Shown piece after piece: positions 1 through 24,038 of a DNA stretch of 64,000 nucleotides. The stretch comes from Verrucomicrobiia bacterium (GTDB lineage Bacteria; Verrucomicrobiota; Verrucomicrobiia; Opitutales; Cerasicoccaceae). Made by a program: the position numbers and the translations under genes. Position 1 is the stretch's first letter. Each line of letters starts with the position of its first letter. Location: assembly GCA_030432235.1 (NCBI GenBank), contig JAUIHT010000007.1, positions 186,001 to 250,000 of the forward strand. The letters are read 5' to 3'. The notes under the pieces were generated by a model, which was not told where the DNA came from, searched no databases, and saw only the letters and a program-made list of their open reading frames with translations.

Positions 1-2398
1 TTGAGCAAAAAGCCACAGAATCACCAAAACTAAATCTAGAGCTATGGTCACGGGTGAAAAAAACAGATCCCTCATCCCTTTCCGGCACTACTGCCCAAGT
101 ATTTTTACCCGAACCTGATGGTACGATATATCTAACTTTACATTCTTCTATGTATTCGGCATTTTTATAATACTCACTAAACTTAATCTCACCCGAGCTA
201 TCCACACTTATGTTTAGCGACTTCTTAAATGCGAAAACTGCATCGGATTGTTCTGCAAAGAAATCCGGACTCGACAGCTCGGACATCTCCTCCTTAACAC
301 TCTCCCCGGGCCTGTAGGGTTGCAAAACAATGTGGTAATTAAGTCTCCATATATTGGAGCCACTACCGTCATTGGAAAAATGTGAAGCGTAGGCGAAAAA
401 ACGCCGATTATGCAAATCGCACTCCAGCCAATCACCGGAGTCATATATCACATCTGACGCAGTCCCATCATTATTAAAATCGTAATCAACAACAATTTTA
501 AGTTTTTTAGTATTAAAATAGTCACGGTACTCCGAAAGCCCATAACTTTCAAAAGCAGTAGGCTCATCATCAGTATCATCATTATCATCCATAATCGAGA
601 ACGGCCTTGGGAAGTCCTCGAAGGTGGGAAAAAAAGTAGTCCTGTTACGCCTTGAAATCCCTATATCGTCAATCGAAACGAACGGATAGTAGTGCTGCAG
701 AGAGGTGGGATCATGGATTTGCGCTTCAATAAACTTTGGCCAAAGAACATCGGGCTGGTCGGTATCGGCTAAATCATTAATTTCTGGATCGTTTTGTATA
801 TAACCCGCAAACCACTTGTAAGCCGTATTCCACTTTGGTGGCATCAAATCATAGAGGTCAAAGCCTTCAATAATTTCAGTATCCTTAATCCAGGGAAAGA
901 AATACTGATATTCACCTTCAACGTAAGCTGCAACAAATGGGTAATTTACAGCGATGAGCCTATTTTGATCAAATTCCGCAATTTGAATACCCAGCATAGC
1001 CGCTAACTGACTTTCAGTTAGTTTCATTCGGTTAGGGTATGGTTGCATATAGAACGCAGGAATACCCGCCTCTCTCAACAGATACACAAGCAGAGCGCAT
1101 TGCTCAATAGGAGAGCCCTGCTCCTCCTGAAATACAGCTAACGCCGAACGACTAATGCCACGTAGCCCAAGACACACTACGCCCCCATTATTTTTAGTTT
1201 CAACCAGGGCATCCGTAAGCTCAATTTGATTTTGGACATAGTTCGCCAATGCCAAAACCATATATTTCTCTTGGCTTACGCTCGAGGACTTTTTCTTACC
1301 CATTTCTACGACAAAATCGTCTAGAATTGGGTGCCTTCGTAATTCGGGGCTATGATCGATTTTCAAAAATTCATTAATGTCGGTATTAAACGGTCCGTTA
1401 TTTGGGTCAAAATTCGCCGTTAATACTGGATACTCACTACTAAATTTAAATTTTGGTAAGTTATCTGCGATTTCATCCGGTGACATACCCCAATACATGG
1501 GCGGCATAGGCTCAGTTTCAAAAGATGGCTTTAGCAATGTATCAGAAAGCGTATCAGGCTGATCAACAAAAGACATTTCAAAGAGGCGCTGATAGACTGC
1601 TGAGCCTGAGTTGTTCTTGGCTAAGGGAATCAGGTCCGTGACAGGATCATAGTTTGGCTTTTTTACATCAATTGCAGACCCTTTACCCCAAAGCACGTAA
1701 TAGTAGTCAGGAGTACTTGCATTAAACGTTATGATATAATTTTCCGACTCGGTACCCAGAGTACTACCTGCGACTGGCCGGAATGTCAACTCCAGTCCGA
1801 TGCCGGTGATTCGATACGAATATGAGTCACTGCCGTTAGCCAAATCATCTGAATAGTCAACGCCACCATTAGTCCAGGGGGTTGGAATCGTGAAAAAATT
1901 AGTCCTTATATAGCCCCAAGTACCATCCTCTCTGAATCCCCATATATCCAGTTTGAAAGGCTTATTACTAGCAGCACGACCAATGTTAACCACTACAGAA
2001 TAGGTTCTTTTAGTATAAAGTGCCTCACCGCCAGAAGGCTCATTATCCATAAATTTGTTACCAAACACAAATAATGGATGTCTTGATGGTAAGCTATGGG
2101 CGTTACTTTCTACACTATAATGTTTTATTTGTGGGCCTTGATTCCATGGCTCTATTTCTGAACTAATAGGAGCACCAATGAGCTCACCAATAGGTGCGAC
2201 AATCGTTTGGTAATGAGGTTCAGAACGATCTATATCCCCGTCTCCATCTTCGTCGATAGTAAGCAAATCACCCCTACGCGCTACCGATGTAAACTCTAGT
2301 GTCTCTGCACCCGACTCGAGGGCAGCCGAAAAGATACTGAGCAAATACAGACCTAAAACAGACCCATTCCTGCTAAAAATGTAAGATAGCTTGTTCAT
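1..2398 (-). CDS. Exported transglutaminase-like protein, 3' end outside window
   Basis: The frame is open from an ATG at 2398 to the window edge (799 codons seen, no stop). The N-terminus has a hydrophobic stretch ending near Ala-Glu-Ser-Gly-Ala, consistent with a signal peptide, followed by an Asp-rich DEDGDGDIDRSE segment of calcium-binding type. Around residue 432 the sequence GSPIEQCALLVYLLREAGIP matches the cysteine-containing helix of transglutaminase-like folds. The expected His and Asp positions read YPFVAAYVEGEY and FFPWIKD, so the triad looks incomplete and catalysis is doubtful. From memory, similar N-termini in Verrucomicrobiota precede RHS/YD repeats; here that is only a guess because the C-terminus is missing. 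It is the last visible gene of a five-gene operon, 28 bp after the preceding stop. Confidence 0.7.
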   Translation of the reverse strand, partial: MNKLSYIFSRNGSVLGLYLLSIFSAALESGAETLEFTSVARRGDLLTIDEDGDGDIDRSEPHYQTIVAPIGELIGAPISSEIEPWNQGPQIKHYSVESNAHSLPSRHPLFVFGNKFMDNEPSGGEALYTKRTYSVVVNIGRAASNKPFKLDIWGFREDGTWGYIRTNFFTIPTPWTNGGVDYSDDLANGSDSYSYRITGIGLELTFRPVAGSTLGTESENYIITFNASTPDYYYVLWGKGSAIDVKKPNYDPVTDLIPLAKNNSGSAVYQRLFEMSFVDQPDTLSDTLLKPSFETEPMPPMYWGMSPDEIADNLPKFKFSSEYPVLTANFDPNNGPFNTDINEFLKIDHSPELRRHPILDDFVVEMGKKKSSSVSQEKYMVLALANYVQNQIELTDALVETKNNGGVVCLGLRGISRSALAVFQEEQGSPIEQCALLVYLLREAGIPAFYMQPYPNRMKLTESQLAAMLGIQIAEFDQNRLIAVNYPFVAAYVEGEYQYFFPWIKDTEIIEGFDLYDLMPPKWNTAYKWFAGYIQNDPEINDLADTDQPDVLWPKFIEAQIHDPTSLQHYYPFVSIDDIGISRRNRTTFFPTFEDFPRPFSIMDDNDDTDDEPTAFESYGLSEYRDYFNTKKLKIVVDYDFNNDGTASDVIYDSGDWLECDLHNRRFFAYASHFSNDGSGSNIWRLNYHIVLQPYRPGESVKEEMSELSSPDFFAEQSDAVFAFKKSLNISVDSSGEIKFSEYYKNAEYIEECKVRYIVPSGSGKNTWAVVPERDEGSVFFTRDHSSRFSFGDSVAFCS

Positions 2399-2426
2399 CG
2401 AGAAAATAGAGATAAATTGCCCGTCA

Positions 2427-5400
2427 TCAGAAAGGCTGCCCTTCCGATGGGCTTTGGATGGATACATTAAGTTGATTCAAAGAATCTTGGATTGCCGGGA
2501 AGTCTGAATCCTTTTCGACGCTTCCAAGGGTCTTCTTATATTCCCAGGCGTCAACTAGTCCGTCGGAATCATTGTCATACTCGGGCACAGCAGGACTTCG
2601 ATTCAATGGATTCCAGTCCAATAGGTATTCTTGGAGATTTGTCAGACCATCATCGTCAGGATCCGCATCGTTTTCATGGCCAGTATCTCCGAAATGAAAT
2701 CGCTCCCATGAGTCAGGGATAGAATTACCATCCTCGTACTGAACTGAAAGTTCCCTTTCAAATAACCATTCTCTGTCGCTAGAACGATTAAACCATCTTT
2801 GCGGCGCTTTCGTAGAAGACTCATAAAAATACCAAGTCTTAGTAGCAAAATGATAGAACCATGTATGGCCTGTATCTGCTCTAAAATCTGTGTTATTAAG
2901 CCATATCCAACCGATTTCAGCATCCCAAACCCACACATTCGTGGGAGAAGTGCCTTGAATCCAGGCCCACTCATTGGTCAACCCATGAAATACCCACCGA
3001 AATGGAGCCAAATCGTCAATTGTCGTGATCCGTTCATAGTCAACAAAGTACTCACCAAACCAATCTGAAAGCTTATAGACATTTCCGCCGTCTCCATTAG
3101 GCACGCGTACGGATACATTTTGCAGCGCATCCTCCTCCGCGGAAATATAATCCTCTGAAGACAAATTCTGAACAATCATCTGATCAGATGAGACAAACGC
3201 AATCGTCTCAGTTTCAGAGCTGAAGCTAGTACTATCAATAGTTGAGGATTGCTGACTGGCGAGTAATGAAGATTGCGAATTATCGCCCTCGCCGTTGACC
3301 TCGTCACTAGGCGCCTCTGGTGGAATGCTAAATTTATCCAAAGGATTTGAACCAGATTTGTACTCCTGAATATTAGTAAAAGAATCACCATCGGGATCAT
3401 CATATGTCCCGTATTGTGTAATTTTTTCAAAATACGTAATTTCCCAGGCATCCTTTAATTCGTCGTTATCACCATCAGCGGTATTTGGCTTAAGATTATT
3501 GTTATACTCGAATAGGTTAGAAAGACCATCGGAATCAAAATCACCCGTAGCGCCATTCTTAACATCAATGGTGCCATCATCAATGGGACTTAGGCCCCAA
3601 GTCACTTCCCAACCATCAGGAAGACCGTCATCATCTGTATCATCATCGTTAGGATTCGTTCGATTAGTATACTCACCCAGATTGTTTAGCCCGTCAGTGT
3701 CAGGATCGGCTGTGGCGCTTGTTTCGAAGTAGCTCATTTCCCACCAGTCAGGAAGGCCATCACCATCAGTATCAGTATTTTCTACGGGACTCGTTCCATT
3801 GGCATATTCGTCAATATTGGGGATGCCATTTGAATTGGGGTCTCCATCTGCCCCATTAGGATCGATAGTGCTCGAGGGATTTAATCCATAGAAAACCTCC
3901 CATTTATCTGGCAGACCATCCCCATCACTATCCTGACTCCTGGGGTGAGTTCCAAGAGCATATTCGCGCGAATTCCGCAGTGTATCAGAGTCCGGATCCC
4001 CATTAGGGCCGTTTACTTTACTAACACTTCCGTCATCCAAGGGGTTTAGGGAATAGGCAACCTCCCAGTCATCGGGCAATCCGTCATCATCTGTATCAGA
4101 ATCGTTAGGATCGGTACCAGCCGACTGTTCGTCGATATTTGTGAGACCATCACTATCAGGATTCCCAGCCGCACCGTTAATAATGTTTGTCGAACCATCA
4201 TCATTTGGGTCAAATCCATGAAGAATTTCCCAGCCATCCAATAAACTATCGCTATCGCTATCCGCAATAAGAGGATGAGTCGAATAGCTCTGCTCTTCAG
4301 AATTTGATAGTCCATCTGCATCGGGATCGCCGAGCGCACCATCTGCCTGTATTATTGCACCATCATCATTCGGATTCAGACCAAATTGCACCTCCCAACC
4401 GTCCAGTAACCCGTCACCGTCTGTATCGTTACTTAATGGATTAGTGCCATATTCATATTCCTCAAGGTTCGTAAATGGATTACTTACAAAACCATCGGAA
4501 TCACCATCCAAGACAGGAATTGTTACACCAAGAGCTTCCAACCAATTGGGCAAACCATCAAAGTCATCATCAATGAATTCGTCGGCACCGATATCAATGT
4601 CGTCAGTACCAACAGCACGCCACTCTCCATTGGCATCAAAGGCTGAGACTCGTTCAGGTAGCGCTGGAAGTATAATGAAATCAATCGCTTCAGAATCAAT
4701 CACCAAATGACCTCCATAGCCTAGCACTGGGTTCTCGTGAGAAATATTGGCACCTACAAGAACAGCATCTTCTATATCATTTCTTACAATTGATTCTGTA
4801 ATAAATATATTCCCACTAGCTCCCCCAGTCTCTGAAACACCAGTATCATTCCAAATAATGCTGGAGTAGAACGAAGCACTAGAGAACTCTGAAACGGATA
4901 TGGCTGCCCCACCCGAATTTGCGTAATTCGAGAATATCGTAACGCTTGTAAAAACAGGGCTTCCCGACTCAACATATACTCCACCGCCTTCATTATTAGC
5001 AAAATTCGCAGTAATAATGCTACCAAGTACTCTAGGGCTCGCGTCTAAAGGCGAATTGATAAACAAACCGCCCCCATTATTCTCAATCCGGGCATTTTTA
5101 ATTGTGAATCCGTCTAGAACACTTTCACTATAAAGAGTAACGACAGATTCTCCCAATAGCGCACCCGATAAAATCGTTTCCCGAGCCCCGGAGGCAGAAA
5201 GTAGCAATAGCGACTTTTCGTTACTGACAACAATCGCTTCATTGTACTCACCGGCTTTTATCTCAATGATATCAAAAGCAGCGGCGGCATCGATCGCCTC
5301 CTGAATATCATTTCGCTGATAAGACTCCAAACTCACAAACCCAGCGTCTACTTGAAAGTAATGATAGTCGCCCATTTGATTTATCGTATACCCTGGCCAC

Positions 5401-8400
5401 TGCTGGCTATCATTGGCGTCTGTCTGATGAAAGAATTCAAAAACATTTGGAAACCTATCCAGGTCCAAATCATCATAAGCATCATCAGAACGTGGATCCA
5501 AAGTAGCAGATACTTCCCAACCGTCTGTCATCAAGTCACCATCCGTGTCCGGATTAAGCAGATCGGTAGATTCCGGACTATGATAAACCTCGGCCCCATC
5601 TAGGTAATCATCGTCATCAGTATCCGAATCCCTAGGGTCTCCACCATAAGTGTATTCTCCCAAATTAGCTAAAGAGTCTGCATCTGGGTCTCCTGTCGCT
5701 CCATTGATGACATTTACTGTACCATCATCCAAAGGATCCAAGCTATTATAGTACTCCCATCCATCCGGTAATCCATCCTCATCGGTATCATCCACGCGAG
5801 GTAATGTTCCAATGGTGTACTCAATCAGGTTCCCGATGCCGTCTAAATCTGGATCGCCTAGCGGGCCGTTGAGCACAAACAAAACGCCAGAATCTAAAGG
5901 ATCCAGATTATGCGCATTTTCCCAGTTGTCAGGTAATCCATCACCATCGGTATCTGCGACTGAAGGGTCCGTCCCTGCGTTGTATTCATCAATGTTATCT
6001 ATGGTATCACTATCATTGTCTTGATTCGGTTCAGTGACGCCAGCGGCTTCAAGCCAATCAGGAAGGCCATCTGAATCACTATCCTTGAATTCATCAGCAC
6101 CACGATCAATGAAATCGGCCGTTAAATCGCGCTGCTCTAAATCCGCATCAATTTTCGAATATGATATCGTAGAATCAACATCTAGGGCCGGTGAGCTTGA
6201 AACGATGTGACCCAATAACCCCAATTGCGGGTTGGTATGCGTTACCTGAGTCAGAACAGCATCACCTGTAGCTGCACGAATAACCGAAGCGTCAATGGAC
6301 ACCTTAATACTTTCACCCCCAATTTCATCGAACGACGAAGGATTCCAGAAAATTGAACGTTCAATGCTGGTGTTTCCTGCTTCGAGTGCCTGGTAGAGGC
6401 CAGAGCCGACTCCTTGGTCCACATGATTGCGATAGACGGTGCTATGGACAAATATTGGGCTACCCAAATTTACCGCAACACCCCCACCATCTGAGGATGA
6501 ACGATTGTTATAGATAATCAGATTCGCAAACTTGGGAGTTTTATCGTTCGAGGGGCGAAGCGTTGCTTCTCCAGCAATAATAGTCGGTAAATCGTCGGGT
6601 TGAACAGATATAAGTAAACCAGCCCCAGGACCCTCCGTTACACCATGAGTCAGTGTGAACCCGTCCACGACGCTCTCAGATTGAACTGTAAGAACAGATT
6701 GAGCCTGACCAGTAGCATCAATGATCGTGCTCCTTGAGCCATCTAAAGAAAGTAGCAAAAGTGGTCTATTGGCAGGCAGACTGATGGCCTCAGAATATGT
6801 GCCAGTCCTCACAAGAATAATGTCATGCCCAGAAGCACTGCTAATAGCAGATAGAAGTGTCTTCTTTCCGTAATCAGATTCTGTAGTAAACCCAGCATCT
6901 ACCTCAAAAACATAGCTCGGTCCGCTTTGGGTTTCAGAATAGCTCGGATAAGAACTAGCCAGCGTGGGATCTGTTCCATGAAAATATTCAAATACGCTAG
7001 GAAATCTATCAAAATCTATGTCATCCAACCCATCAGAGCCATCAAGTGGATCTAGATTATAGGATACTTCCCAGCCATCTGGCATCATATCACCGTCTGT
7101 GTCTTTAATCAGTAATTCGGTTCCCTCTAAAATTTCACTAGTATCTGTCAGTCCATCTTGGTCACTATCATCCAACAATGGATTAATTTCGGACTGATAT
7201 TCCATGATGTTAGACAAAGAATCTGAATCATAGTCTCCAGTTGTGTCCACAACCCCCAGAGCCTCTATCCAATCAGGAAGTCCATCGCTATCGGTATCAG
7301 TATATTCGTCCGCACCTGTATCAACGGCCTCTACAGTAGCATCGCGCCACTCTCCATCTGAATCAAATTTTGAGTAGCGTACCGGCAAAGTCGGTAAGGT
7401 TATAAAATCAATTGCAGGAGAATTTGAATTCAGGTGACTCGCGAACGCCAATAAGGGATTCAAACTGGACGAGTCCTCTAAAACAGAGTCTCCATAGTCG
7501 TTGCGAACAATCGATTCCTTGAAAAAGACAGCTGAGGTCTGTCCACTGACTTCAGAAATGCTAGATTCATTCCAAAGAATCGAGCTGAAAAATGAAGCCG
7601 ATGCATTCTCGGAAACGGCCAATCCGCTGCCTTCTTGCACAGCAAAATTACGGTTGATGGTAACACTGGTAAAAAGAGGATTACCCGATGCCACATAAAC
7701 ACCGCCACCAGTGGAGCCTGCAATATTTTGCGTAATGACACAACCAAGGAGGCGCGGAGAGGAGGTGTCAGGCGCCTCAATTCTTATCCCGGCACCACTA
7801 TCTGCAACACGACCACCAGTGATAGTAAAACCATCCATAGTACTACTACTCCGTAGAAGCACTGCTGTCTGCTCTAAATCCTGGGCATTAATTATAGTCT
7901 GCCGCGCACCAGACTCCGAAATCAATAAAATTGGCTTATCAACAGGAACTTCCAAGGCTTCCATATACTCGCCTGCAAGAACGTATATAATGTCATGTTC
8001 AGTCGCTGCATCGATCGCCGTCTGAATTTGTTTCTTTTCGAAGTCAGCCTCTACAGTTAGGTCATCGTCGACTTTATATATATTATGACTGCCAGTTTGA
8101 GACACCGCATATATCGGGAAGTCATTAAAGTTGTTAGCGTCAGTATTGTGGAAATACTCGAAAACATTAGGATAACGATCCAAGTCAAGGTCATCCAAGG
8201 CATCATCCACTAGCGGATCCAAAGTCATTGTGATCTCCCAACCATCCCACATCAAATCACCATCCGTATCAGGGTTCCTTAAATCAGTCGAAGATGGTGA
8301 ATGGAAAACTTCGAGACCATCTTCATAGCCGTCATCGTCAGTATCTGGATCGTGAGGCAATCCTCCGTGAACGTATTCACCTAAATTTGAAAGCCCATCT

Positions 8401-10121: not shown

Positions 10122-10130
10122 GATATATGA

Positions 10131-11165
10131 CTAGAAAATTTCCCTATTTTTTTTCAACCGCTCAAAAATCTTGTCATGGGCTACTTGAGCAGCATGAGAA
10201 AACGGAGTAATCTGAAGCTCCTCAATCCGGTCGACAGTCCTTAAAGCTTCGAATCCACCTAAATCACCCAACGCGGCAATGGCAGACATACGCTCTATCG
10301 TATCGTCAGAGTTTATCGCAATCTCTTCAATAGAGGCCACCGTACTTTGATCACTGACACCTAAACGAACCAAGGTCTGAATTGCTGACGACCGAACATA
10401 AGGCGATTCATGTTTCAAAGAAAGATTTCTAGCGATGCCAGAAACATTAATCTCTTCCTGCAGTTCAGGATACTCCTCTACCAAAATGCCCAACCCAAGT
10501 ATCGCTGTTCCTTGTAAATCTGGATCTTTGAGAGCCTTAGTAAGGGCATTAAGATTATCAGCCAGAAAGGCGCTATCTTTGATAGACCGCTCGACAAATA
10601 AAATATGAAACTGAATAGCGTACTCCCTTGAAGCCTTGCTCAAGCTCCTATTGGACCACATTGAAGTGAGTTCAGAAAAAATAACCCCAGGGGTACGCCT
10701 CTGATTAATTAATTTATTCAAAACTTCGTTTTTCAACGAATCCCATTGCATCTCTGTAACACCTAAGCCCATACGGTATGGTAGCTTGAGGAGGTCGAGT
10801 AGCATAACCAACTCCTCTGTACCTAACTCATTGCCAAGCGACCTAATTGCACTGATTTTCTGCTCATATACTCGAACCTGTTCGGTTGTTGGCGTAACCC
10901 TTTTATCTTTATCACTATAACCTGAAGCGGACTTTTCAGCATTGCTGAGCTCATACTGAGTATCTTCTTTCGAGATGTTACCCAATATACCCGAATCAAA
11001 CGCTTGAGCCTCGCGCCCTAGAATAGGGGGTTGCATGAAGGGAATCTTTTCGGACGAATCGCGCTCAAGCCAAAGAAGCGTACCAATGCAAAAAAAAAGT
11101 ATAATAAGCACAACAGACAGTATCAGCCTGATATAGATATGGTACTTACATCTTATGTTACTCAT
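10131..11165 (-). CDS. Membrane-anchored HEAT-repeat protein
   Basis: This 344-aa protein starts with a short basic segment and one hydrophobic helix at about residues 9-33, so it is probably anchored in the inner membrane with the bulk outside the cytoplasm. Residues of about 190-330 form HEAT/armadillo-like helical repeats (SSAIQTLVRLG, MSAIAALGDLGG). A GGGGAGG-type Shine-Dalgarno lies 5 bases before the ATG and just after the stop of the 2600-aa gene. HEAT repeats generally act as protein-protein scaffolds. Its position between two giant exported proteins suggests a role in their export, assembly or anchoring, which is inference. Identity beyond the fold is not recognised. Confidence 0.75.
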   Translation of the reverse strand: MSNIRCKYHIYIRLILSVVLIILFFCIGTLLWLERDSSEKIPFMQPPILGREAQAFDSGILGNISKEDTQYELSNAEKSASGYSDKDKRVTPTTEQVRVYEQKISAIRSLGNELGTEELVMLLDLLKLPYRMGLGVTEMQWDSLKNEVLNKLINQRRTPGVIFSELTSMWSNRSLSKASREYAIQFHILFVERSIKDSAFLADNLNALTKALKDPDLQGTAILGLGILVEEYPELQEEINVSGIARNLSLKHESPYVRSSAIQTLVRLGVSDQSTVASIEEIAINSDDTIERMSAIAALGDLGGFEALRTVDRIEELQITPFSHAAQVAHDKIFERLKKNREIF

Positions 11166-11180
11166 TAAAGCCTCCCCTGT

Positions 11181-14100
11181 TTACTCCCCAATTGCCCCCA
11201 GGTAAGTATTGCCATCATAAAGCTTAGTCCTGTGACAAACAGATGCGCCTACACCAGCACCTCGAATAAATCGATAGTGGTAGCGTCCCAATTCGTCAAA
11301 ATCAGTAAGAGTTACATCCTTTACAGTAGTTCCGTCCTCAAAAACGACACCCGAAACGAATATTTCTAATCTTATCCGCACTGTATCGGCTAAATTTTTC
11401 TGGAACATGACACCTTCTACGAGTTGGCTGCCGTCAGGATACACTTCAAGAATCTGAAGGTGAGATTCGTTGCTATAGGTAAGATCAAAGGCAGCAATCT
11501 CCATTCTTGAAGCAACTGCTCCTGAATCTCCAATGCGTGCAATAACCGGAAAATCGAGAGCTCGACTGGGGGTAACATCGTAGTGGTTGCCATCTTCTTT
11601 CGCACCCAAATCCTCGTCAAACTGTGGGTAAACTTCACTGGGTAATATAGCTATAGCATTGTTGCGGAGTCTCCTGGTTTTTGCAGCAACCACTGTCGCA
11701 GGGAATACATAATCAATCACGTGTACAGTAAGCGTAGACTCAGTTTCCCCTTGGATTCCCGTCACATCGTAGCTGCCAGCGGTGTCAAAAAGTACATCTA
11801 GAACCTCGCCAGCGGCTAAATCGCTTGTATTACCGTCCAGCGCAATAGAACTGTCACCCTCAAGCTGTGAGGCATCCTCCATCTTGAGCCTCAGAGTATC
11901 GCCAAGTCGAATGAAGATATCACCTTCATCGAATATATTCTTCGGCAACCACTCGATCTCAATATCGGCAATCAAACCATTGTTTTCAAAAGACGCTGAC
12001 AAGCTTGTCGATCCCTCTGTGGCGCTCAACGGAACATCTGCATACCAACAGTAGTCAGGGGCACTGCGAGGGATCCCCACAGATAGCGAGGGCATCAAAT
12101 CACGGAAACGTGTTTTCCCCTCGATAAAAGCAGGCGAGACATAACTGTACATTGAGGATGTAAAGATGTAGTTTGTTGCCTCAAGCAAGTTGACAACCCA
12201 GTCCGCAATGCCATCGCTATCGGTATCCGGACCATCGATTTTCTGCACCTTTATAGACTCAACGGTGAAGAATGGCTCAGCGTTTATGATGTCTGCAAAA
12301 AGCAACGACAGACTGTGTTCACCAGCCTCAAGCCACATGGTCAGTCCCCGGCCATACTCATCATTGCCATAGGCCTGATTGACAGAAAACTCAGATAATA
12401 GCACATCGTCAACTGATAGCTCAACCTCCTTAATTTGAGAGAAATCACCGTGTTCAGAGTTTACTGATTGGTTGTTTTGCCAGCCTTTCACTTCAATTCG
12501 ATAAATATTTGATTCAAAAACAGAGAAGTCATAAGTGAGTTTTCCCCGCTCCTCATTGGTTGCTATATACCCCCCAGATCTATACCATTGCCCAACTGTC
12601 TCACTGGCAGCTGCTCCGGCTAGGGTAACAATATTGGTGACGGTATTTTCGCTCAACAAGTCCGTCCCCAGGAAATACTCCATAAAGTCGTCAATAGCAT
12701 CAGCATCGGTATCGATTGAAAGCGGGTCGGAACCCATGGCAATTTCTAGTGCATCATCCAGGCCATCTCCATCCGTGTCACCTAACAGCGGATTCGTGTG
12801 ATAGTTGTTCCATTCATCGAAATCGGAAAGGTTATCGCCATCGGTATCGGCTAACAGACCGTTTGTTCCCAATTCTGACTCTAATTGATTTGCTAAACCA
12901 TCACTATCCGCATCAGCCATAGGATCATTAGTGACAGACAGATCACCAAAAACATTATATTCCCAAACGTCAGGCAAGCCGTCTAAATCACTGTCTGTTT
13001 TGTAAATTAGCTGAATATCCTCCGGGTCCAGTACATAATTGAACACGCAAAACTCATCGAACACACCTCCCATGTTAGAAAAGCGCATTGGATTGGGCAG
13101 TGAAGTGAATGCGTAACGCGGTATCTCGAAAGCAAGTTGCCCATCAAGATAAAGTCTAAGGTTGTCATCATTGTATGTGACAGCCACGTGGTGCCATTCA
13201 TTGGCCTGCCAATGAATGGGCGTGTAGTGTAAATTAATATTGCCACCCGTGACACCACCGGAGCCATCATGCTGGCGAATTCCTAGTAGTTTGGTTTCAC
13301 GATGAACCACGAGCCCGAGATAGGCAGGAGTGTACTTGGCCTTCCAGTTACCAATCTCAAATAAACTGCGCCATATTTTAGACGTAACGACCGTACCGCT
13401 CTCCCAAGAAGGTTTATACCAAAAACTAAGACTGCCCTCTAGCCGAGATAGCGAAGCAACAGAGTTGAATTCCAATTCATCATTTTCATTCAGTAGAATC
13501 CCTTGATTGGAAAAACCTGAAACAAAGCCATACCCTTTATAAACAGTGGGAGTCTCTCCCCCTTCTCCAATAAGGCTACCATTAAATACATATTGCGCTA
13601 TCCGGGAAGGAAGATAACTAGAGGAGAGATTGATATTTGTTCCAGCATTGCTTTCCTCATTATTACTGACCCCATCAAGGTCATTATCACGAGGCCGTGA
13701 GTCTGCTGAATTGGGATCGAAATTTTGAGTTACTTCAAAAGCGTCCGACCACCCATCGATATCGGTATCAATGGAATTAGGGTCTGTCTGCCAGAAAAAT
13801 TCTTCTACATTAGACAAACCATCTGCATCCGTATCAACATCTGCATCGGCGACATAGCGTTGGAGCGAATTCCCCAGTTCCCACCAATCAGGCATGCCAT
13901 CACCGTCAGAATCCAACGAGACATCTGAGGGATCCAAAGGATTCAGACCATAGTAAACCTCAAAATAATCACTGAGATTATCAGAGTCAGTATCCTCTAC
14001 GTCAATGAACGTCCCGTTCAGGTACTCCAGTGAATTAACAAGACCATCTCCGTCATAGTCTTCATCTCCATCTACTGGATCTAATTCATCTAGAAATTCA

Positions 14101-17100
14101 TAAAGACGCTCAAAATCATTTGGCATTCCATCTCCATCAAAGTCAAAGCCCGCTGGCTCTCGATTTGAAACTAGAAGGGTGTCCACATATGTTGCGGATT
14201 CATCCTTTGTATCCGGCAAGTTTTTGACCAGAAAACGCGAGAAATGTGGAACATCAGGATTATGGAAAGGTAACCCCCAAAAGACCATCTTGCCGTTAAG
14301 AATAAGATTCCATTTCTTTTCGGAATAATTCAAATTAATCGAATAATTCTGCCAGCCTTCTTCGATTGTATTATAGGTATCACTCTCCCATTCTCCCAAC
14401 TCATTATTCCAAGCAACAAGCTTACGGTTAGCACCTAAAGCAAATACTGCTGAGGTCGGTTGCTGAGGAGTAATCGATTCCGGTACTTCGGTCGGCAACA
14501 AATCTGCCTGAAACGAAACCCATAAATTAGGAACATCAAACCACCCCGCATAAATAAAGGCTAAAGCATACTCTCCGGCGATGGATAGTGATTGCTCTCC
14601 CGATCCCGCTGTCAAATTGGTAACTGTAGCCGAGGATTCAGCCAGCCAGCCATTTTGAGTATCAATATCGCCGACAAAGTACCCTTCCGAAACTTCAAAT
14701 TCCACTTTCCATTCGATCAAACCATTGGAATCCGCATCCGGACGCCGCTGAGCATCAGGAACAAGTGGATTAAGCCCAAATAGCTCCTCAAGTCCATCGA
14801 CCACACCGTCACCATCCGTGTCGGCATTCAATGGGTCCGTTTCATCTATATCGACAATGCTGTTTCCATTCGCATCTTCCTCCAAGTTACTTAGGCCATC
14901 ACCGTCGATATCAGAGCTAAGAGCATATTTTTGCACCAAATAGCGGTGAATTCTACTTTTACTTTCGATTGAAAGTGATCCGCTAAAAACGATCAGCTCT
15001 GCAATATTTCCTCCAAGGAAATGGCTGCTATCACTGCTCTTCTTTCCTAAAGCCAGTATCGTCGAACTTCCACTTTCCCATGATTGGGTCACTTGATTTG
15101 AGAACGCCCCTATATATCCTTCACTTGCAATATGAATTACACCATTCAAGCCACCATCACTTCCTCCTTCACGAGAAACAGATGTAACAAGAAAACGGTT
15201 TAGATAATCCGCATCGAACGTGAGATAAGCCCCATCCGCATTAACCCCAACATTGTTAATCCCTAGCTCATTCGCATTAGGGCCCCAACGCAGTAAAGGC
15301 GCACCAGTAATATTGGTGCCCTGATTGAAGCTAAAAACAGCAGCTTTGTCATGCCCACCATGGCGCTGGTGGACAACAAAAGCAGTGAAATCATGGAGGC
15401 TTGGGTCAAACCCTAAATCTCCATCCAGATAATCATCTGTCCCATCGAAAAATACAGAGGGGAGATGCAGGCTGCTTTCATCAAGGGCCGGACGAGCCGT
15501 AGTACTATCTTGCCGGAGCCGATGCACAAATCCACTTTTGTCTTCCCATTGATAAATCTTATCCTGTTCGTCTCTTTCCAGACCAGTTTCTGCATCAAAC
15601 CAAGCGACCAAAGAAGCTTCACTTAGCACAGGCCCCAGTTCATCCCGATTGGATGGATCCATTCCAAGATTAAGCTCACGAATATTACTCAAACCATCCA
15701 AATCGTAGTCATCATCCGCACCCTGGTCTAAATCAGTAAAATATTGCCGCTCAATTTCATCAGGCAAACCATCTGCATCTACATCGAGATTAATGCTGTA
15801 TTTATTGCCTAGATATTCCTCAAGTTCTCGAAGTTCAGTGTCAGACAAAGCCTCGCTAAAAGCAAAAATCTCGACGACATCACCAGCAAAATAATCATTG
15901 TTATCCGCATCACTGAATTTTTTACGTCCTACGTAGTATGCTTCAGAGAAACCACTGGACCATGTTTGAGGAGCTTCAGAATGAAGTGTATATCGTTCTC
16001 CTAAGGCTCGTATTTTCAAAATCCCGTTCAGCCCTTGGGCTATCCCACCGACACGGCGAGCCGAAACGATCTTTAGATCATTAAGTTGTTCTTCTGCTAA
16101 TGAAACAAAAGCTCCAGAGGTGCTAGCACCGACTTCATTAATTCCAAAATCACCAGACTCCGGACGGTTCCATCGTAATAAAGGCGAGCCAATGGCATCA
16201 TCACTAGTTGAGTAACTCAGTGTAGCCGATAACCCGTTTTCGAGACGCTGCGCCGTGACAGCAATCAAAGTGAAATCACCTGTGCCAGGATCGAAGTTGC
16301 TATCACCAAAGAGATAATCATCAACTCCATCAAATCGAACAATCTGCTGACCGCTCGTACCCCAAGGAACAGCCAAAGGACGACGCCCATCATCGTACTG
16401 AATAGCAGTATTGCCATTGCCGGACGAATCAAACCAGGAAACGACATTATCTAATGAGTCGGTTTCAATACCTTGAGCACCATCCAACCACAATTCGAGG
16501 GATGGCTTTTTAACAATAAAATTAAATCCGTCAAAGGTACTTGCGTCCGTACTCAAATTATACTCTCGCCAGTTGTTGAGACCATCTTCGTCCGGATCTC
16601 CCAACGCATCTTCATCCAACGAGCCAAAAATGCTCCTTTCCCAATCGTCCGGAAGGCCATCGCTATCTTGGTCGAGTGACAAACCATATTCTGTCGCAAG
16701 TTTTCGCTCCATCTGAATTATGGTGTCTTCTTCTAGAGAACCTTTATACACGCGCACTTCAGCAATATCTCCTCCGAAGTAATGCGTTGTCCCATAAGCT
16801 TTCTTGCCCAAGAAAAGCCCAGTATTGCTACCGCTAATCCAATCTTGAACACCCTCGGCAATATGCGTTTCGCCATTTGTCAATGAGCGTAAGCGCAAGC
16901 TCCCTCCACTACCATAAACGCCACCGGTTCGGCTGACCGATGATATATAAATCTGATTCTCATATTCTGAACCCAGATCTACGTATGTACCGTTTGTACC
17001 CGCTCCGACCGCATTAATGCCAAACTGACCCGCTTCCGGCCCATACCTAAGCAAGGGAGACCCCGTTGTCCCTGGCAACACAGAGAAACTAACCGGTGCA

Positions 17101-18983
17101 GCTTTATCATGCCCGCCTAGTCGTCGGTGAACTAATATTATGGTAAAATCATCCGCCCCTGCGTCAAACGCAGCATCGCCTTCAAGAAAATCATCTACAC
17201 CGTCAAAGCGAACAGCTGACTTGCCGCCAATCGCATCGGTAACGAATTCCGGTCGGACCGTTATAGTGGACTGCGCCAAGTCGGTTCCATAGGAAACACG
17301 GTTTCTCCAGCTTTCAACTCCATCAGAACCGTCCAGTACGATTCCGGAGTCAGCAATTAACCAAATATACAGAGTGGCAGACGAACCGTCCGACAGCCCG
17401 TCTCCATCCGTATCCCATAGATTCGGGTCGGTCTCCGTTGCGTCAACGATACCATTGCCGTTAATATCTTCTTCAGAATTGGAGAGGCCGTCTCCGTCAT
17501 TATCCAAATTATCAGGCTCACTATAACCGATGCTTACCTGGTCCAAATATGAAATAGCACTCCTTTCTTCCAAAAATCCGAAAGAAGTAAAATAAGGCAC
17601 CGGGTTTGCAAAACCAAAGTCATTCGCGACTTTAACTCCATTCAAGTATAGTGACCAAACCTGCCTCGCATAATCCAATTCTACCGTGATACGTTGCCAA
17701 GTATCATCCACAGCTTTATGCTCAAGCATTTGCCACTCCCCCAGCGGTAAAGCACTACCATCAAAGGCGTTCAGTTGGCCATCCTCATCAAAATAGAAAC
17801 CCGCCGATGTACTACTCTTCAGTGCAGGCACCCCTCTTAGGGCACCAGTCACAATTCGAAAATCTACCCAAACAACCTGTTGTGCTTCAGCGCTAAAAAG
17901 ATTGTAAAGCTGCACGGGCCCAGTACCACCAGCGATTTTAGCAGAGAAATTCCCAGAATACACCTCATCAATAGTGATTACCGGCTCTATATCACCGCTA
18001 TATTGCCAGCCACTTGACGAAGTTATACCTTGTTGGCTGTGGTTTTCGAAGTCATCAAAAAAAGGCAAAGAGCCAAGATCATACTCATCATGGCTCAAAG
18101 GATCGGCACCCGATGCGAGTTCCCACCCATCAGGCACGCCATCATCATCAGAATCAGGATCTCCTGCATGTAAGTCCCTCAGAAATTCTTGAATATTGAC
18201 CACGCCGTCGAAATCAGAATCAAGATCACGGTCATCGGCATATAGGTCGAGACCATTAGCTGTCTCATAGGCATCACTCATGCCATCACTATCACTATCC
18301 AAAAAGACCGGATTCTCATAACCTGCATAGAAAAAATCAAAGTAGACAGGCGCCAAACCACCTCCTTTGAGACGGAACTGAGTAAAGGCATCCAGCAAAT
18401 CATCCAGGAATCGCAAGTCCGTGGCCACCAATTTATTGTCTAGGTAAAGGTCCCAGGTCTTCGTAGTGTAATTGAGGCGGTAAGTGAACCGCACCCAGCT
18501 GGTAGAAACCCCATCAGCAGTCAGCGAAAACTCGTGTGGGACCCGTTGCCACTGACCGCTCCCTTGCCCATCTCCATGTACCACGTAAAGCCAGCCTGTG
18601 CCCTCATCATCAACCAGGCCCGACATGGCCGAGGTAACGTCACTGGCGGAGAGCGGTAAAGATTCAAAAGGGCCAGCGACAGGCTTGAGGTAGAAATCCA
18701 CAAAAGTGACCGCACTCACTGTGCTCCCAGGAAAACTTGCCGTCAGAAAACCACTGGAGCCGAGAGGAAACTCAACGCCTTGGGCATCTGAGGCAAAGTC
18801 CGCTAAGGTCACCAAAGCCCCTGAATTGCCGACAATCCAAGGCGACTGTCCGGGAGCAACCCCATCATTATAACCGTCGACTACCTCAAAGTCCGTCTCG
18901 TACGGAAGACTAATTTGTCCGACTAATTGTCCAGAAAAGAGGGCTAGCGAAAGCCCGAGGCAGGCTGCGCTAACGCGGTTCAT
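11181..18983 (-). CDS. Giant exported LamG / TSP3 protein (2600 aa)
   Basis: A signal peptide is visible at residues 1-23 (MNRVSAACLGLSLALFSGQL). TSP3 repeats separate several jelly-roll domains. Three related LamG-type domains sit at roughly residues 544-768, 831-1068 and 1124-1354, each with an FDGVDD(Y/F)L or FDGTDDYL strand. Three other ConA-like modules of the FEVxxGY or FEN type lie near the N-terminus, near residue 300 and near residue 1400. A further LamG with WHHVAVTYND lies near residues 1794-1991, and a carbohydrate-binding-like segment near 2118-2248. The last 250 residues are not recognised. LamG and CBM-like folds bind glycans or proteins, so an adhesin or matrix protein is likely; no enzyme motif was found. 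The start codon lies in the loop of a perfect stem-loop at 18971-19004. Confidence 0.85.
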   Translation of the reverse strand: MNRVSAACLGLSLALFSGQLVGQISLPYETDFEVVDGYNDGVAPGQSPWIVGNSGALVTLADFASDAQGVEFPLGSSGFLTASFPGSTVSAVTFVDFYLKPVAGPFESLPLSASDVTSAMSGLVDDEGTGWLYVVHGDGQGSGQWQRVPHEFSLTADGVSTSWVRFTYRLNYTTKTWDLYLDNKLVATDLRFLDDLLDAFTQFRLKGGGLAPVYFDFFYAGYENPVFLDSDSDGMSDAYETANGLDLYADDRDLDSDFDGVVNIQEFLRDLHAGDPDSDDDGVPDGWELASGADPLSHDEYDLGSLPFFDDFENHSQQGITSSSGWQYSGDIEPVITIDEVYSGNFSAKIAGGTGPVQLYNLFSAEAQQVVWVDFRIVTGALRGVPALKSSTSAGFYFDEDGQLNAFDGSALPLGEWQMLEHKAVDDTWQRITVELDYARQVWSLYLNGVKVANDFGFANPVPYFTSFGFLEERSAISYLDQVSIGYSEPDNLDNDGDGLSNSEEDINGNGIVDATETDPNLWDTDGDGLSDGSSATLYIWLIADSGIVLDGSDGVESWRNRVSYGTDLAQSTITVRPEFVTDAIGGKSAVRFDGVDDFLEGDAAFDAGADDFTIILVHRRLGGHDKAAPVSFSVLPGTTGSPLLRYGPEAGQFGINAVGAGTNGTYVDLGSEYENQIYISSVSRTGGVYGSGGSLRLRSLTNGETHIAEGVQDWISGSNTGLFLGKKAYGTTHYFGGDIAEVRVYKGSLEEDTIIQMERKLATEYGLSLDQDSDGLPDDWERSIFGSLDEDALGDPDEDGLNNWREYNLSTDASTFDGFNFIVKKPSLELWLDGAQGIETDSLDNVVSWFDSSGNGNTAIQYDDGRRPLAVPWGTSGQQIVRFDGVDDYLFGDSNFDPGTGDFTLIAVTAQRLENGLSATLSYSTSDDAIGSPLLRWNRPESGDFGINEVGASTSGAFVSLAEEQLNDLKIVSARRVGGIAQGLNGILKIRALGERYTLHSEAPQTWSSGFSEAYYVGRKKFSDADNNDYFAGDVVEIFAFSEALSDTELRELEEYLGNKYSINLDVDADGLPDEIERQYFTDLDQGADDDYDLDGLSNIRELNLGMDPSNRDELGPVLSEASLVAWFDAETGLERDEQDKIYQWEDKSGFVHRLRQDSTTARPALDESSLHLPSVFFDGTDDYLDGDLGFDPSLHDFTAFVVHQRHGGHDKAAVFSFNQGTNITGAPLLRWGPNANELGINNVGVNADGAYLTFDADYLNRFLVTSVSREGGSDGGLNGVIHIASEGYIGAFSNQVTQSWESGSSTILALGKKSSDSSHFLGGNIAELIVFSGSLSIESKSRIHRYLVQKYALSSDIDGDGLSNLEEDANGNSIVDIDETDPLNADTDGDGVVDGLEELFGLNPLVPDAQRRPDADSNGLIEWKVEFEVSEGYFVGDIDTQNGWLAESSATVTNLTAGSGEQSLSIAGEYALAFIYAGWFDVPNLWVSFQADLLPTEVPESITPQQPTSAVFALGANRKLVAWNNELGEWESDTYNTIEEGWQNYSINLNYSEKKWNLILNGKMVFWGLPFHNPDVPHFSRFLVKNLPDTKDESATYVDTLLVSNREPAGFDFDGDGMPNDFERLYEFLDELDPVDGDEDYDGDGLVNSLEYLNGTFIDVEDTDSDNLSDYFEVYYGLNPLDPSDVSLDSDGDGMPDWWELGNSLQRYVADADVDTDADGLSNVEEFFWQTDPNSIDTDIDGWSDAFEVTQNFDPNSADSRPRDNDLDGVSNNEESNAGTNINLSSSYLPSRIAQYVFNGSLIGEGGETPTVYKGYGFVSGFSNQGILLNENDELEFNSVASLSRLEGSLSFWYKPSWESGTVVTSKIWRSLFEIGNWKAKYTPAYLGLVVHRETKLLGIRQHDGSGGVTGGNINLHYTPIHWQANEWHHVAVTYNDDNLRLYLDGQLAFEIPRYAFTSLPNPMRFSNMGGVFDEFCVFNYVLDPEDIQLIYKTDSDLDGLPDVWEYNVFGDLSVTNDPMADADSDGLANQLESELGTNGLLADTDGDNLSDFDEWNNYHTNPLLGDTDGDGLDDALEIAMGSDPLSIDTDADAIDDFMEYFLGTDLLSENTVTNIVTLAGAAASETVGQWYRSGGYIATNEERGKLTYDFSVFESNIYRIEVKGWQNNQSVNSEHGDFSQIKEVELSVDDVLLSEFSVNQAYGNDEYGRGLTMWLEAGEHSLSLLFADIINAEPFFTVESIKVQKIDGPDTDSDGIADWVVNLLEATNYIFTSSMYSYVSPAFIEGKTRFRDLMPSLSVGIPRSAPDYCWYADVPLSATEGSTSLSASFENNGLIADIEIEWLPKNIFDEGDIFIRLGDTLRLKMEDASQLEGDSSIALDGNTSDLAAGEVLDVLFDTAGSYDVTGIQGETESTLTVHVIDYVFPATVVAAKTRRLRNNAIAILPSEVYPQFDEDLGAKEDGNHYDVTPSRALDFPVIARIGDSGAVASRMEIAAFDLTYSNESHLQILEVYPDGSQLVEGVMFQKNLADTVRIRLEIFVSGVVFEDGTTVKDVTLTDFDELGRYHYRFIRGAGVGASVCHRTKLYDGNTYLGAIGE

Positions 18984-19004
18984 TATATGGCGAAAACCGC
19001 GTTA
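18971..19004 (-). promoter_or_regulatory. Perfect 10-bp stem-loop enclosing the giant gene start codon
   Basis: On the minus strand TAACGCGGTT (19004-18995) and AACCGCGTTA (18980-18971) are exact inverse complements separated by 14 bases. The loop ends with the ATG of the 2600-aa gene, and the 5' arm begins with the TAA stop of the upstream small gene. In mRNA this would fold around the initiation site and could make translation of the giant protein depend on ribosomes finishing the small gene, or mark a processing site. The structure is seen directly; its function is inferred. Confidence 0.6.
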
Positions 19005-19208
19005 ACGTTTACCAGGGAAAAACTTGGAGGCCAAACGGGCCAGCTTGCTATCCGGCTTTCTGCTACCGAAAAGCATCAGCAGCGAAGTAATCAGGATGAA
19101 CCCGCCTACACTCGACATTTCGATGAGGGTCCCCCCGGCGGGTTCCTCGGCATGAAGCAGGGCTGGTAAAGCAAAACAGGCGGTAAGGAGTAGTCCGATG
19201 GTTTTCAT
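19002..19208 (-). CDS. Small exported membrane protein heading the giant-protein operon
   Basis: This is a 68-aa protein with an N-terminal signal-like helix (residues 1-20, cleavage plausible after LHAEE), a second hydrophobic helix (GGFILITSLLMLFG) and a basic tail with two Lys/Arg clusters. The signal-helix-basic order resembles the layout of C-terminal sorting tags, but no PEP, LPxTG or Gly-Gly signature is present. It is the first gene downstream of the divergent promoter region and its stop codon lies in the stem that surrounds the next start. Its role is unknown; a small accessory or anchor component of the giant-protein system is possible. Confidence 0.6.
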   Translation of the reverse strand: MKTIGLLLTACFALPALLHAEEPAGGTLIEMSSVGGFILITSLLMLFGSRKPDSKLARLASKFFPGKR

Positions 19209-19443: not shown

Positions 19444-20352
19444 ATGAAAAAGCCATCTCTCGTCAAAATCGTTGCCGTCGTAAATTCGCTTCTCGTCGTC
19501 TACATGCTCTACACCGTGTATGACTTGAAGCAGGCGCGTAATGCACCGAAAGCTATTCAGCCACAGGGAAATATGTCTCGGCCAGAACCACCGACCATTG
19601 AAGAGCTACTCATTGCGCTGGAAGCAGATCCATCCCATCCTGAAAAGCTACAAATATTGAAACAACTGCCGAATCTCCAGAAAGAGGAAGCAAATCGGCT
19701 TCATCTATGGCTAAACAACAAATTGTTTCGTGACGCCGCAGTGGACCGCCTGGAGCGCCTAGATATTACAGACGCCGCTTACCGAGCCTTGATTGGCTCA
19801 GACTATGACGAGAGCCGTCTGTCCGGGGAATTGCAAACGCGGGTCAGCGATGACACTCTCTGGCTTCCTGAACGTAATCAGGCATTGATTCACTTGTTCC
19901 TTCTTTACGGAGAAAAAGCTCCTCGCACAACAGATGTGCCCACAGAATCAACGACACCAGAGAGCGATACCCCCACCCTTATAAACGAAGCATTAGCAAG
20001 TGCGCTCGTATCTGCCATGAACGCAGCCAAATCCGCCAGCAACACGACACTGGCCGCAACTTGCCTCGATGGCAGTCTGTACCTCTACAACAGTGGTCTT
20101 GAAATTCCTGCCCAGTCTACCGCCGATGAAATAGCTCTCACTGCTCTAAGTGAAAGCTATGAACCATCCACTCAAATAATTGCCATAAGATATGCCCAGA
20201 CATTTGATCTGGATATCGTTTCCCAGGCTGCGAACCTGCTGACTAACTCCAAAAATGTGCCCGTCGCAATTGCCGCCAAAAAATACCTTGTGGACAAGGC
20301 ATCAACCACCGAGCCAGCCCTATCAGCAAATGCTACTGGGCCTCTTCAGTGA
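19444..20352 (+). CDS. Membrane-anchored hypothetical protein, divergent from giant operon
   Basis: This 302-aa protein has one N-terminal hydrophobic helix (VKIVAVVNSLLVVYMLYTVY) and a helical, soluble remainder containing a Thr/Ser/Pro linker (TTDVPTESTTPESDTP). The architecture, a short anchor followed by helical repeats, is similar to that of the HEAT protein in the divergent operon, and the C-terminal 70 residues have a HEAT-like pattern of helices. It has no recognised family motif. It is transcribed from the extended -10 promoter at 19320-19328 and ends inside the converging gene by 20 bases. A partner role for the giant-protein operon is possible but unproven. Confidence 0.65.
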   Translation: MKKPSLVKIVAVVNSLLVVYMLYTVYDLKQARNAPKAIQPQGNMSRPEPPTIEELLIALEADPSHPEKLQILKQLPNLQKEEANRLHLWLNNKLFRDAAVDRLERLDITDAAYRALIGSDYDESRLSGELQTRVSDDTLWLPERNQALIHLFLLYGEKAPRTTDVPTESTTPESDTPTLINEALASALVSAMNAAKSASNTTLAATCLDGSLYLYNSGLEIPAQSTADEIALTALSESYEPSTQIIAIRYAQTFDLDIVSQAANLLTNSKNVPVAIAAKKYLVDKASTTEPALSANATGPLQ

Positions 20353-21307
20353 CTTCTAAACCCAAAAAATCAGGTCTAAACACAAAACTTAAAACCCCCT
20401 TAGCCTCACGATAAGCGATTACGGAATAAATTGCAGGTGGCTTCGATTCGTCATAACTAACTTCGTATTTCGTCGGATAGAGCATACCTGAAAATTCAGA
20501 ATACTGATCGTATTCGATGAAGAGCCTGCTGGGGCCCATCTTAAACTCCTGTCTTCTGATCAAGAACGAGGTGCTATCCAGAAAGATACGATATTCCACC
20601 TCATCGGGAAACAACATCTCCATCCAATAGCCAGCCAAGTGGCTCCACTCGGCCTCGGACTCCAGCAAATTTACCTGAATCTCATCTCGATTGGTTCCAT
20701 AAGCCTCACTTAAGACATACCTGATAATGGGGTCGTCATACGTTACTTTGGCACGTAACATAGTCAAAGCTTCCGGATTTGCACTTCCACGCTGCACAGC
20801 AACTCCGTCTTTTTGAATTTCTTTCCAAGCATTTGTGCCGTCAAACCACCGTTCGATTTCGATTTCCCCATCAGATATCCTCAGATATTCCAGATTTGGT
20901 CGTTTTCTAATCGAATAAAATTCCTGCACTCCATCTTTCTCTGTAATGGTTCCTTCCAGAATATGCGAATCCGCCTCAATGAGACGCTCCAGTCCACCAA
21001 GGGCACCGATGTGCTTCGTGATTAACTCGTTAATGGCTTCATTATCATGCCACTGCCCGATGGCATTGCTCGTGGCATCTGATTCTTCGATGATATCGAC
21101 GGTAGTCGTGCCCTCCTCGACCTGAAACCCCTGCTCAGATTCCCCCGACCATTTCACGATCAGCGGATAGACCATCAACACCGCGCCAAAAATCGCCAAG
21201 TACTTGAAGTTCCTGGTAGCAAAGCCCTCTGGTTTATTTTGAGATTCCCCCACGAGTTCGATCTCACCAACAGCTTGCACCCAGGCAATCAGAAAAAAGG
21301 AAACCAT
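20333..21307 (-). CDS. Membrane-anchored hypothetical protein, possible LolA-like fold
   Basis: The chosen ATG at 21307 gives a protein of about 324 aa. The open frame extends to a TTG at 21355, and a GTG at 21253 would instead place the membrane helix (YLAIFGAVLMVYPLIVKW) closer to the N-terminus. After the helix comes a region of alternating beta-strands with the phrases YWMEMLFPDEVEYRI, IRRQEF and YPTKYEV, a pattern of outer-membrane lipoprotein carrier-like proteins that bind lipid in a half-barrel. The fold assignment is tentative and the substrate is unknown. The stop overlaps the converging gene, and the gene lies just downstream of the tRNA-Val 3' end. Confidence 0.6.
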   Translation of the reverse strand: MVSFFLIAWVQAVGEIELVGESQNKPEGFATRNFKYLAIFGAVLMVYPLIVKWSGESEQGFQVEEGTTTVDIIEESDATSNAIGQWHDNEAINELITKHIGALGGLERLIEADSHILEGTITEKDGVQEFYSIRKRPNLEYLRISDGEIEIERWFDGTNAWKEIQKDGVAVQRGSANPEALTMLRAKVTYDDPIIRYVLSEAYGTNRDEIQVNLLESEAEWSHLAGYWMEMLFPDEVEYRIFLDSTSFLIRRQEFKMGPSRLFIEYDQYSEFSGMLYPTKYEVSYDESKPPAIYSVIAYREAKGVLSFVFRPDFLGLEVTEEAQ

Positions 21308-21373
21308 GCCAAAGGCTCTCTTAACGATTCGATGCCTACGCAATCCATTTGGCAAGTATCAGAGAGATAGCAA

Positions 21374-21450
21374 TGGTGGGAGCTAGAGGACTCGAACCTC
21401 CGACTTCTACCGTGTGAAGGTAGCGCTCTAACCAACTGAGCTAAGCCCCC
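21374..21450 (-). tRNA. tRNA-Val (anticodon CAC)
   Basis: The minus strand folds into a complete cloverleaf: acceptor GGGGGCT pairs with AGCTCCC (one G-T), anticodon stem CTACC/GGTAG encloses loop TTCACAC (anticodon CAC at positions 34-36), and T arm GGAGG-TTCGAGT-CCTCT. The discriminator A and CCA are encoded (21374-21377). The 3' end faces the AT-rich left part of the window, the usual orientation for an island inserted at a tRNA 3' end. Confidence 0.95.
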
Positions 21451-21881
21451 GTTAAAAAAGCAGAAAGTGAACGAATCCACGCCACCGGTCAACAGCGAAG
21501 TCACTGATACCCGGTGGAGCCTTCCAAGGTTTTGGAGAAAGTAAAAAAGCAGCTTTTCAAAAAAAGTGCCCCAACCTATCCAAGCGTTCCCATAGAACCC
21601 AACGAGCCAAGGTAACTATTGGTAGCCCGTGCTAGAATGCCGGGCATGAATACAACGATGGGCAGACGTCCGCCTTAGCAGCGCGACCTTTTTAACCGAA
21701 ACGCCGAACCTGTTTTCGAGACGGGCCCGATGCGTTCATCCGCCGGCATCACCCACCAGAGCGTGTTGCTGGGCGCCAACCCGGCCTTAAATGGATGAAT
21801 CGACCTTGGGCTCCGAACCGAACCCCGGAGAGGCCGGTCGGCTGTTCTTTGACAATGGGCTGCCTCAGACAGGCGAGCCAA
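21451..21881. other. Intergenic region upstream of tRNA-Val, no gene found
   Basis: No convincing coding sequence is present; short open frames lack start signals or recognisable sequence. It contains an inverted repeat CCACCGG (21482-21488) / CCGGTGG (21511-21517) with a 22-base loop upstream of the tRNA. A minus-strand TTGACC (21492-21487) could be a -35 for the tRNA, but a matching -10 is poor. Confidence 0.4.
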
Positions 21882-23447: not shown

Positions 23448-23511
23448 CGGCTTTTTCGATTGTGATTCCTACCGCTATGAACGATTTTTCAAACCGATCA
23501 ATGCACAAGTG

Positions 23512-23988: not shown

Positions 23989-24038
23989 TGTCTGAAAAAG
24001 CTTGGCCTAAGCGCCTCTCCGCGCACAAATAAAAGACC

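Follow-up and report, generated by a model that had tools for sequence, protein, structure and literature searches.

The 64,000-nucleotide stretch of DNA analysed here (the window) comes from a Verrucomicrobiia bacterium of the family Cerasicoccaceae (order Opitutales; assembly GCA_030432235.1, contig JAUIHT010000007.1) and corresponds to C20:186001-250000 of genome G000. Its first 19,208 nucleotides carry a minus-strand run of genes for very large proteins that is probably an Rhs polymorphic-toxin locus. Five open reading frames (ORFs) lie end to end, the first four encoding proteins of 68, 2600, 344 and 2564 amino acids (aa) and the fifth crossing the window edge. The gaps between them are 18, 15 and 9 bp, then 28 bp if the fifth gene starts at ATG 2398, and the close spacing described in an earlier note made from the sequence alone is thereby borne out; the alternative start at 2467, which gives the longest ORF, results in a 41 bp overlap with the 2564-aa gene. 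The run goes on past the fifth gene, with a 210-aa gene 2 bp after its stop. Promoter-like matches number 16, against 16.5 expected from shuffled sequence.

The run is headed by the gene for the 68-aa protein (19002..19208, minus strand, as are all five), which has a signal-like N-terminus, a single hydrophobic helix and a basic tail. Next comes the first of two predicted exported giants, of 2600 aa (11181..18983), with a signal-like N-terminus, LamG/ConA-like and TSP3 stretches (Pfam Laminin_G_3 and TSP3_bac) and a conserved C-terminal domain of about 420 aa (CTD; 11184..12446). The 344-aa protein (10131..11165) consists of an N-terminal membrane helix, a low-confidence linker and an alpha solenoid that matches Pfam HEAT_2, and the second giant, of 2564 aa (2427..10121), is built of TSP3 and beta-helix-like repeats, with a Pfam TSP3 match and a beta-helix-like (pectinesterase) match; it is accessory, being present in some loci only. 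The modular make-up of both giants and the HEAT assignment had been proposed in the earlier note, and the Pfam matches agree with it. Its naming of the fifth gene as transglutaminase-like did not survive: the Pfam Transglut_core score, 16.8 bits, lies below the curated cut-off of 23 bits, and the Cys stretch is conserved in a second genome of the family (G094), the His not being evident by eye. The 2398 nucleotides in the window (1..2398) encode the N-terminal quarter of P0003, an Rhs/YD protein of 3,216 aa whose gene reaches C20:178817, 7,184 bases left of the window. P0003 runs from a signal-like N-terminus through a weak transglutaminase-like stretch, DUF6531, many YD repeats and an Rhs-associated core to a tip of about 300 residues; the Pfam scan gives RHS_repeat at E 1.5e-48 plus DUF6531, and the core scores 62 bits with TIGR03696 (Rhs_assc_core; cut-off 32.5).

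The order CTD giant, HEAT protein, optional TSP3 giant, Rhs protein and small gene is conserved. A search for the HEAT protein in 177 genomes of the order gave matches in seven, the window's genome included, and in the other genomes each of the eight HEAT-matching loci, L007-L014, has a match to the C-terminal end of the 2600-aa protein as well. G094 repeats the whole order: a small membrane protein, a 2602-aa giant, a HEAT protein, a 2583-aa giant, a 3158-aa Rhs protein and a 110-aa gene. The two giants are 70% (over the full length) and 62% identical to their counterparts in the window and the HEAT protein 48%, and the Rhs protein is 52% identical to P0003 up to the core and unrelated beyond it. 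CTD, HEAT and Rhs follow one another in G069, G049, G042 and G057 too, with or without additional giants; other loci pass straight from HEAT to Rhs, without a giant of the 2564-aa type. The 68-aa protein or a relative heads four loci (G000, G094, G069 and G049), with E-values of 8e-38 in G094 and 1e-28 in G069, both within the profile, and 3e-7 in G049, which is outside the profile but of the same order.

A profile search of 387 genomes of the phylum found the CTD in at least 46; no more than four candidates per genome were scored, which makes this figure a minimum. By label, ten named CTD loci belong to Verrucomicrobiia (1), Opitutales (1), Opitutia (4), uncultured Verrucomicrobia (1), Akkermansia (1) and 'bacterium' (2). 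We compared the neighbourhoods of 70 CTD ORFs, a set made of stretches around 56 further CTD hits, the earlier loci and five distinct named loci. HEAT is the next gene in 34 of the 60 CTD ORFs that have 1.5 kb downstream, mostly at gaps of -4 to 46 bp; some HEAT genes (in L062, for example) were masked by the ORF picker beneath opposite-strand ORFs. Of 48 testable CTD loci, 36 have an Rhs gene within the next three genes on the same strand. This count leaves out five duplicates (L115-L118 and L121), keeps loci with less than 6 kb downstream if Rhs was seen, takes Rhs as present by manual entry in the window, L015 and L019, and includes both CTD ORFs of L019. In 24 of the 36 the order is CTD-HEAT-Rhs and in 12 Rhs is present without HEAT directly after the CTD; all 19 HEAT-Rhs gaps that were measured are 38 bp or shorter. 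Within the fetched stretches, which are all that this count covers, 33 of 162 ORFs in the first three same-strand places are Rhs, against 2 of 142 ORFs further on. The earlier note had named a lack of conserved order in any relative as one outcome that would refute its operon; the order is in fact kept far beyond the family. Draft contigs stop shortly after the CTD in L064, L067, L068, L085 and L096, as if the repetitive genes that follow break assemblies, and given such contig ends the true frequency of the module may exceed our count.

By their evolution the Rhs genes of the CTD loci are toxins, with toxin activity as a prediction from sequence. We assembled 36 Rhs proteins, 33 of them encoded near CTDs and chosen by their YD pattern, together with those of G000, G094 and G049. 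All 36, P0003 included, match NCBIfam RHS_core, 35 match Pfam RHS_repeat and 33 match Rhs_assc_core. When the 28 complete proteins were divided into core and tip with a core profile and compared pairwise, the cores matched in 372 of 378 pairs and the tips in none (0/378); such conserved cores with unrelated tips mark a polymorphic toxin. Toxin-family matches occur in one member each, to Tox-PL-2 (the G094 tip), Tae4, PT-HINT and Peptidase_M91. Behind 28 of 30 complete Rhs genes, no more than 200 bp away and on the same strand, lies a gene of at most 300 aa, and 28 such small genes have no BLASTP match among one another. In G000 the 210-aa gene is itself followed by an orphan Rhs tip of 385 aa, then by a 128-aa gene and by one for a related 222-aa protein, 33% identical to the 210-aa one. 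The orphan cassette shares 198 bp at 98% identity with the parent Rhs core, as would be expected if tips recombine with stand-alone cassettes, a mode of tip exchange that the available part of PMC3482391 describes for polymorphic toxins. Could the YD repeats be merely the structural shell of a secreted system that degrades polysaccharides or captures nutrients? Such a role would suit the matches to LamG and to a pectinesterase-like beta-helix, and an extracellular protein of about 6,000 aa from Ca. Menyafoubacter (PVC group), with beta-helix, TSP3, CglD-like and RHS parts, is interpreted as catabolic in the available part of PMC12057145. Hypervariable tips, single toxin-family matches, following small genes and an orphan tip cassette all speak against this explanation, which we regard as very unlikely.

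Two side observations concern other genes of these loci. A 155-aa protein encoded downstream of the toxin genes (L002:5361-5828; L017:8448-8933) is 71% identical between G000 and G094, above most of the locus, and a Trp-rich C-terminal stretch, judged by eye, seems to be common to the 2564-aa giant and a 771-aa protein (L002:5922-8237). DUF6531 was rejected as a genome-level marker of Rhs, as many Rhs proteins escape it: at E <= 0.001 it is absent from both G049 and G069, which carry Rhs.

The HEAT proteins of these loci form one alignable family. The model of the 344-aa protein (predicted local distance difference test score, pLDDT, 85.8) has a helix at residues 5-36 and a solenoid at 94-343, and a structural search with it returned general solenoids only, none at E <= 0.001. 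Linkage to the CTD was compared through two genome-wide searches over the same 387 genomes, taking 60 CTD hits with a near-complete C-terminal part and 82 HEAT hits (about E <= 1e-20) and omitting G226. HEAT is present in 39 of 45 CTD genomes and in 14 of 342 others (odds ratio 152; 39 genomes with both, 6 with CTD only, 14 with HEAT only and 328 with neither). Of 55 testable CTD hits, 31 have HEAT immediately behind the CTD, 13 have it at another same-strand place no more than 12 kb away and 11 have none there; these counts are biased toward finding HEAT beside the CTD, the HEAT profile having been built mostly from CTD-adjacent genes. In some loci, such as L141, HEAT is upstream of the CTD. 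HEAT-repeat immunity entries are listed with Tox-REase-7 and Ntox34 in the available part of PMC3482391, and the HEAT protein might accordingly be read as an immunity protein. We consider this very unlikely: HEAT is a single family while the tips are mutually unrelated, it usually lies upstream of Rhs, and a distinct small gene follows the tip in nearly every case.

The last part of the CTD is conserved and includes, near the C-terminus, a Cys-His pair that is invariant (alignments A1 and A3); no Pfam family matches more than 1 of 10 members scanned. Its AlphaFold model is confidently all-beta (pLDDT 90.2), and the predicted fold is best described as tandem immunoglobulin-like (Ig-like) beta sandwiches; we claim no specific relative. 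Foldseek returned multi-Ig chains with TM-scores below 0.3, and the best VIA-align hit, at Z 8.1, is within the range that the tool calls common. Aspergillopepsin, nitrosocyanin and plastocyanin were dropped as candidate relatives, the sequence matches being weak (E 0.0008 and up).

How the products leave the cell was addressed by searching the genomes of carriers and the protein N-termini. The type VI secretion system (T6SS) is not the delivery route, since its sheath protein TssC (PF05943) is found in only 1 of 47 carriers, which is not G000, in a search whose E. coli control was positive; nor does P0003 have a PAAR match at E <= 0.01. A hydrophobic stretch at the N-terminus, present in 31 of 37 Rhs proteins and 40 of 42 HEAT proteins, suggests that the Rhs proteins are exported by Sec and that the HEAT proteins are membrane-anchored or exported; 10 of 18 CTD proteins passed the same test, and all these counts rest on guessed start codons. 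Secretins are encoded by all 10 carriers tested, so a type II-like exit is possible. The type IX protein SprA was matched in 0 of 47 carriers, though no control genome gave a match either.

The gene linkage and toxin-type evolution observed are probably those of an Rhs polymorphic-toxin locus in which the CTD giant and the HEAT protein are dedicated partners. For assembly, export and target we infer the following. The Rhs protein would be exported via Sec, fold around its own tip and carry that tip as a toxin, with the small gene behind it encoding the immunity protein. The CTD giant may be a long surface or fibre protein that binds calcium and glycans and carries the toxin or presents it to neighbouring cells. 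The HEAT protein would be anchored in the inner membrane, its solenoid lying in the periplasm, and could serve as an assembly or export scaffold linking the CTD giant and Rhs; the exact job of this pair is presumably display, export or adhesion. The earlier note had pictured a dedicated surface or secretion system; the conserved order supports a dedicated gene set tied to the surface or to secretion, in the form of a toxin locus and not of a generic surface operon.

Several points weigh against an Rhs toxin with dedicated partners. Twelve of the 48 testable CTD loci lack Rhs in the next three genes (five have HEAT only, seven neither), and some CTD-HEAT pairs carry other large secreted proteins in its place. 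The large gene after the CTD is not Rhs by YD pattern in L061, L062, L063, L112, L119 and L120, and mostly bears a signal; the protein in L061 has a weak alpha/beta hydrolase match. DUF6531 occurs in 99 of 387 genomes, and many genomes with Rhs of this type have no CTD hit. Only 31 of the 82 strong HEAT hits are directly after a CTD, and HEAT-family genes stand alone in L129, L134 and L139, with no CTD or Rhs in the stretch. The tip of P0003 has no match to a toxin family in the Pfam scan, and both the crossing of the outer membrane and a physical partnership of giant, HEAT and Rhs protein are presumed. The six loci just named, and the optional presence of the beta-helix giant, would fit a general surface-fibre or matrix system of giants and HEAT protein with Rhs as one of several unrelated downstream passengers. 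We think this unlikely, as random passengers would not recur across the phylum in the way that Rhs does, within three genes of the CTD at three quarters of the testable loci and tightly spaced behind HEAT wherever the gap was measured. Proteins other than Rhs in the Rhs place do mean that the pair could be a more general module for export or display, in which Rhs is the most frequent cargo. We tentatively entertain, with some doubt, the proposal that an undescribed apparatus, independent of the T6SS and with the CTD giant and HEAT protein at its core, exports and presents Rhs toxins in Verrucomicrobiota-like bacteria, the Rhs position being an exchangeable cargo slot.

Giant exported proteins with a polymorphic tip and an adjoining immunity gene are the hallmark of contact-dependent inhibition (CdiA/CdiB/CdiI). 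The present locus resembles it in all three respects, its immunity gene being putative, but here the surface-type giant and the toxin are separate proteins, and no CdiB-like partner was matched in the genes scanned. In Tc toxin complexes the TcB-TcC Rhs cocoon forms a shell holding a variable tip and works with large partner proteins. The Rhs shell, variable tip and large partners recur here; however, P0003 contains RHS_repeat and DUF6531 only, with no SpvB/TcdB-type domains, and the partner is of LamG/TSP3/Ig-like type. Closest in kind are the Rhs/YD polymorphic toxins (WapA and RhsA type; surveyed in PMC3482391), with which the locus shares its YD repeats, Rhs-associated core, variable tip, orphan tip cassette and a small gene after the tip. 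It differs from them in being consistently linked to a CTD giant and a membrane HEAT protein, and in that no PAAR domain was matched and 46 of the 47 carriers have no T6SS sheath gene. The Myxococcus TSP3 surface proteins CglD and MtsD share TSP3 repeats with the giants, and the NCBIfam CglD profile matches at E 1.9e-37, but scores fall far under the curated cut-offs of 400 and 800 bits for CglD and MtsD: 128.7 and 83.8 for the 2600-aa protein, 117.7 and 80 for the 2564-aa protein. The Ca. Menyafoubacter protein is likewise a PVC-group secreted giant with beta-helix, TSP3, CglD-like and RHS parts; it is one single protein, and the available part of PMC12057145 mentions no operon, HEAT partner or immunity gene. 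A literature search over titles and abstract openings returned no description of the CTD giant, HEAT and Rhs gene set. The toxin thus belongs to the known Rhs family, and the pairing of CTD giant and HEAT protein is the part for which that search found no description. Rhs toxins exist in Gram-negative bacteria without a T6SS, where their export route is an open question; the locus offers two conserved candidate partners, an Ig-like C-terminal family without a Pfam match and a membrane HEAT family, both open to direct deletion tests.

To the right of the run, GC content rises from about 0.44-0.50 to 0.62 near a tRNA-Val gene (window 21374-21450; the rise falls within 20000-24000). We rejected this step as evidence for a genomic island: no direct repeat of the tRNA end was found in C20:146001-250000, where matches reach 10-11 bases only, and with far-left GC at 0.48-0.56 the right-hand part may equally be the GC outlier. 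In each of the three genomes of the family in which the module was seen (G000, G094 and G069), two genes adjoin the locus. One, on the minus strand (20333..21355), encodes a 340-aa protein with a membrane helix near its N-terminus that is co-conserved in the family; its relatives next to the locus are 29% (G094) and 22% (G069) identical, and it has no match in the remaining loci examined. The other, divergent on the plus strand (19444..20352), encodes a 302-aa protein with a membrane helix, a diverged relative of the HEAT protein whose profile matches several HEAT proteins from other loci.
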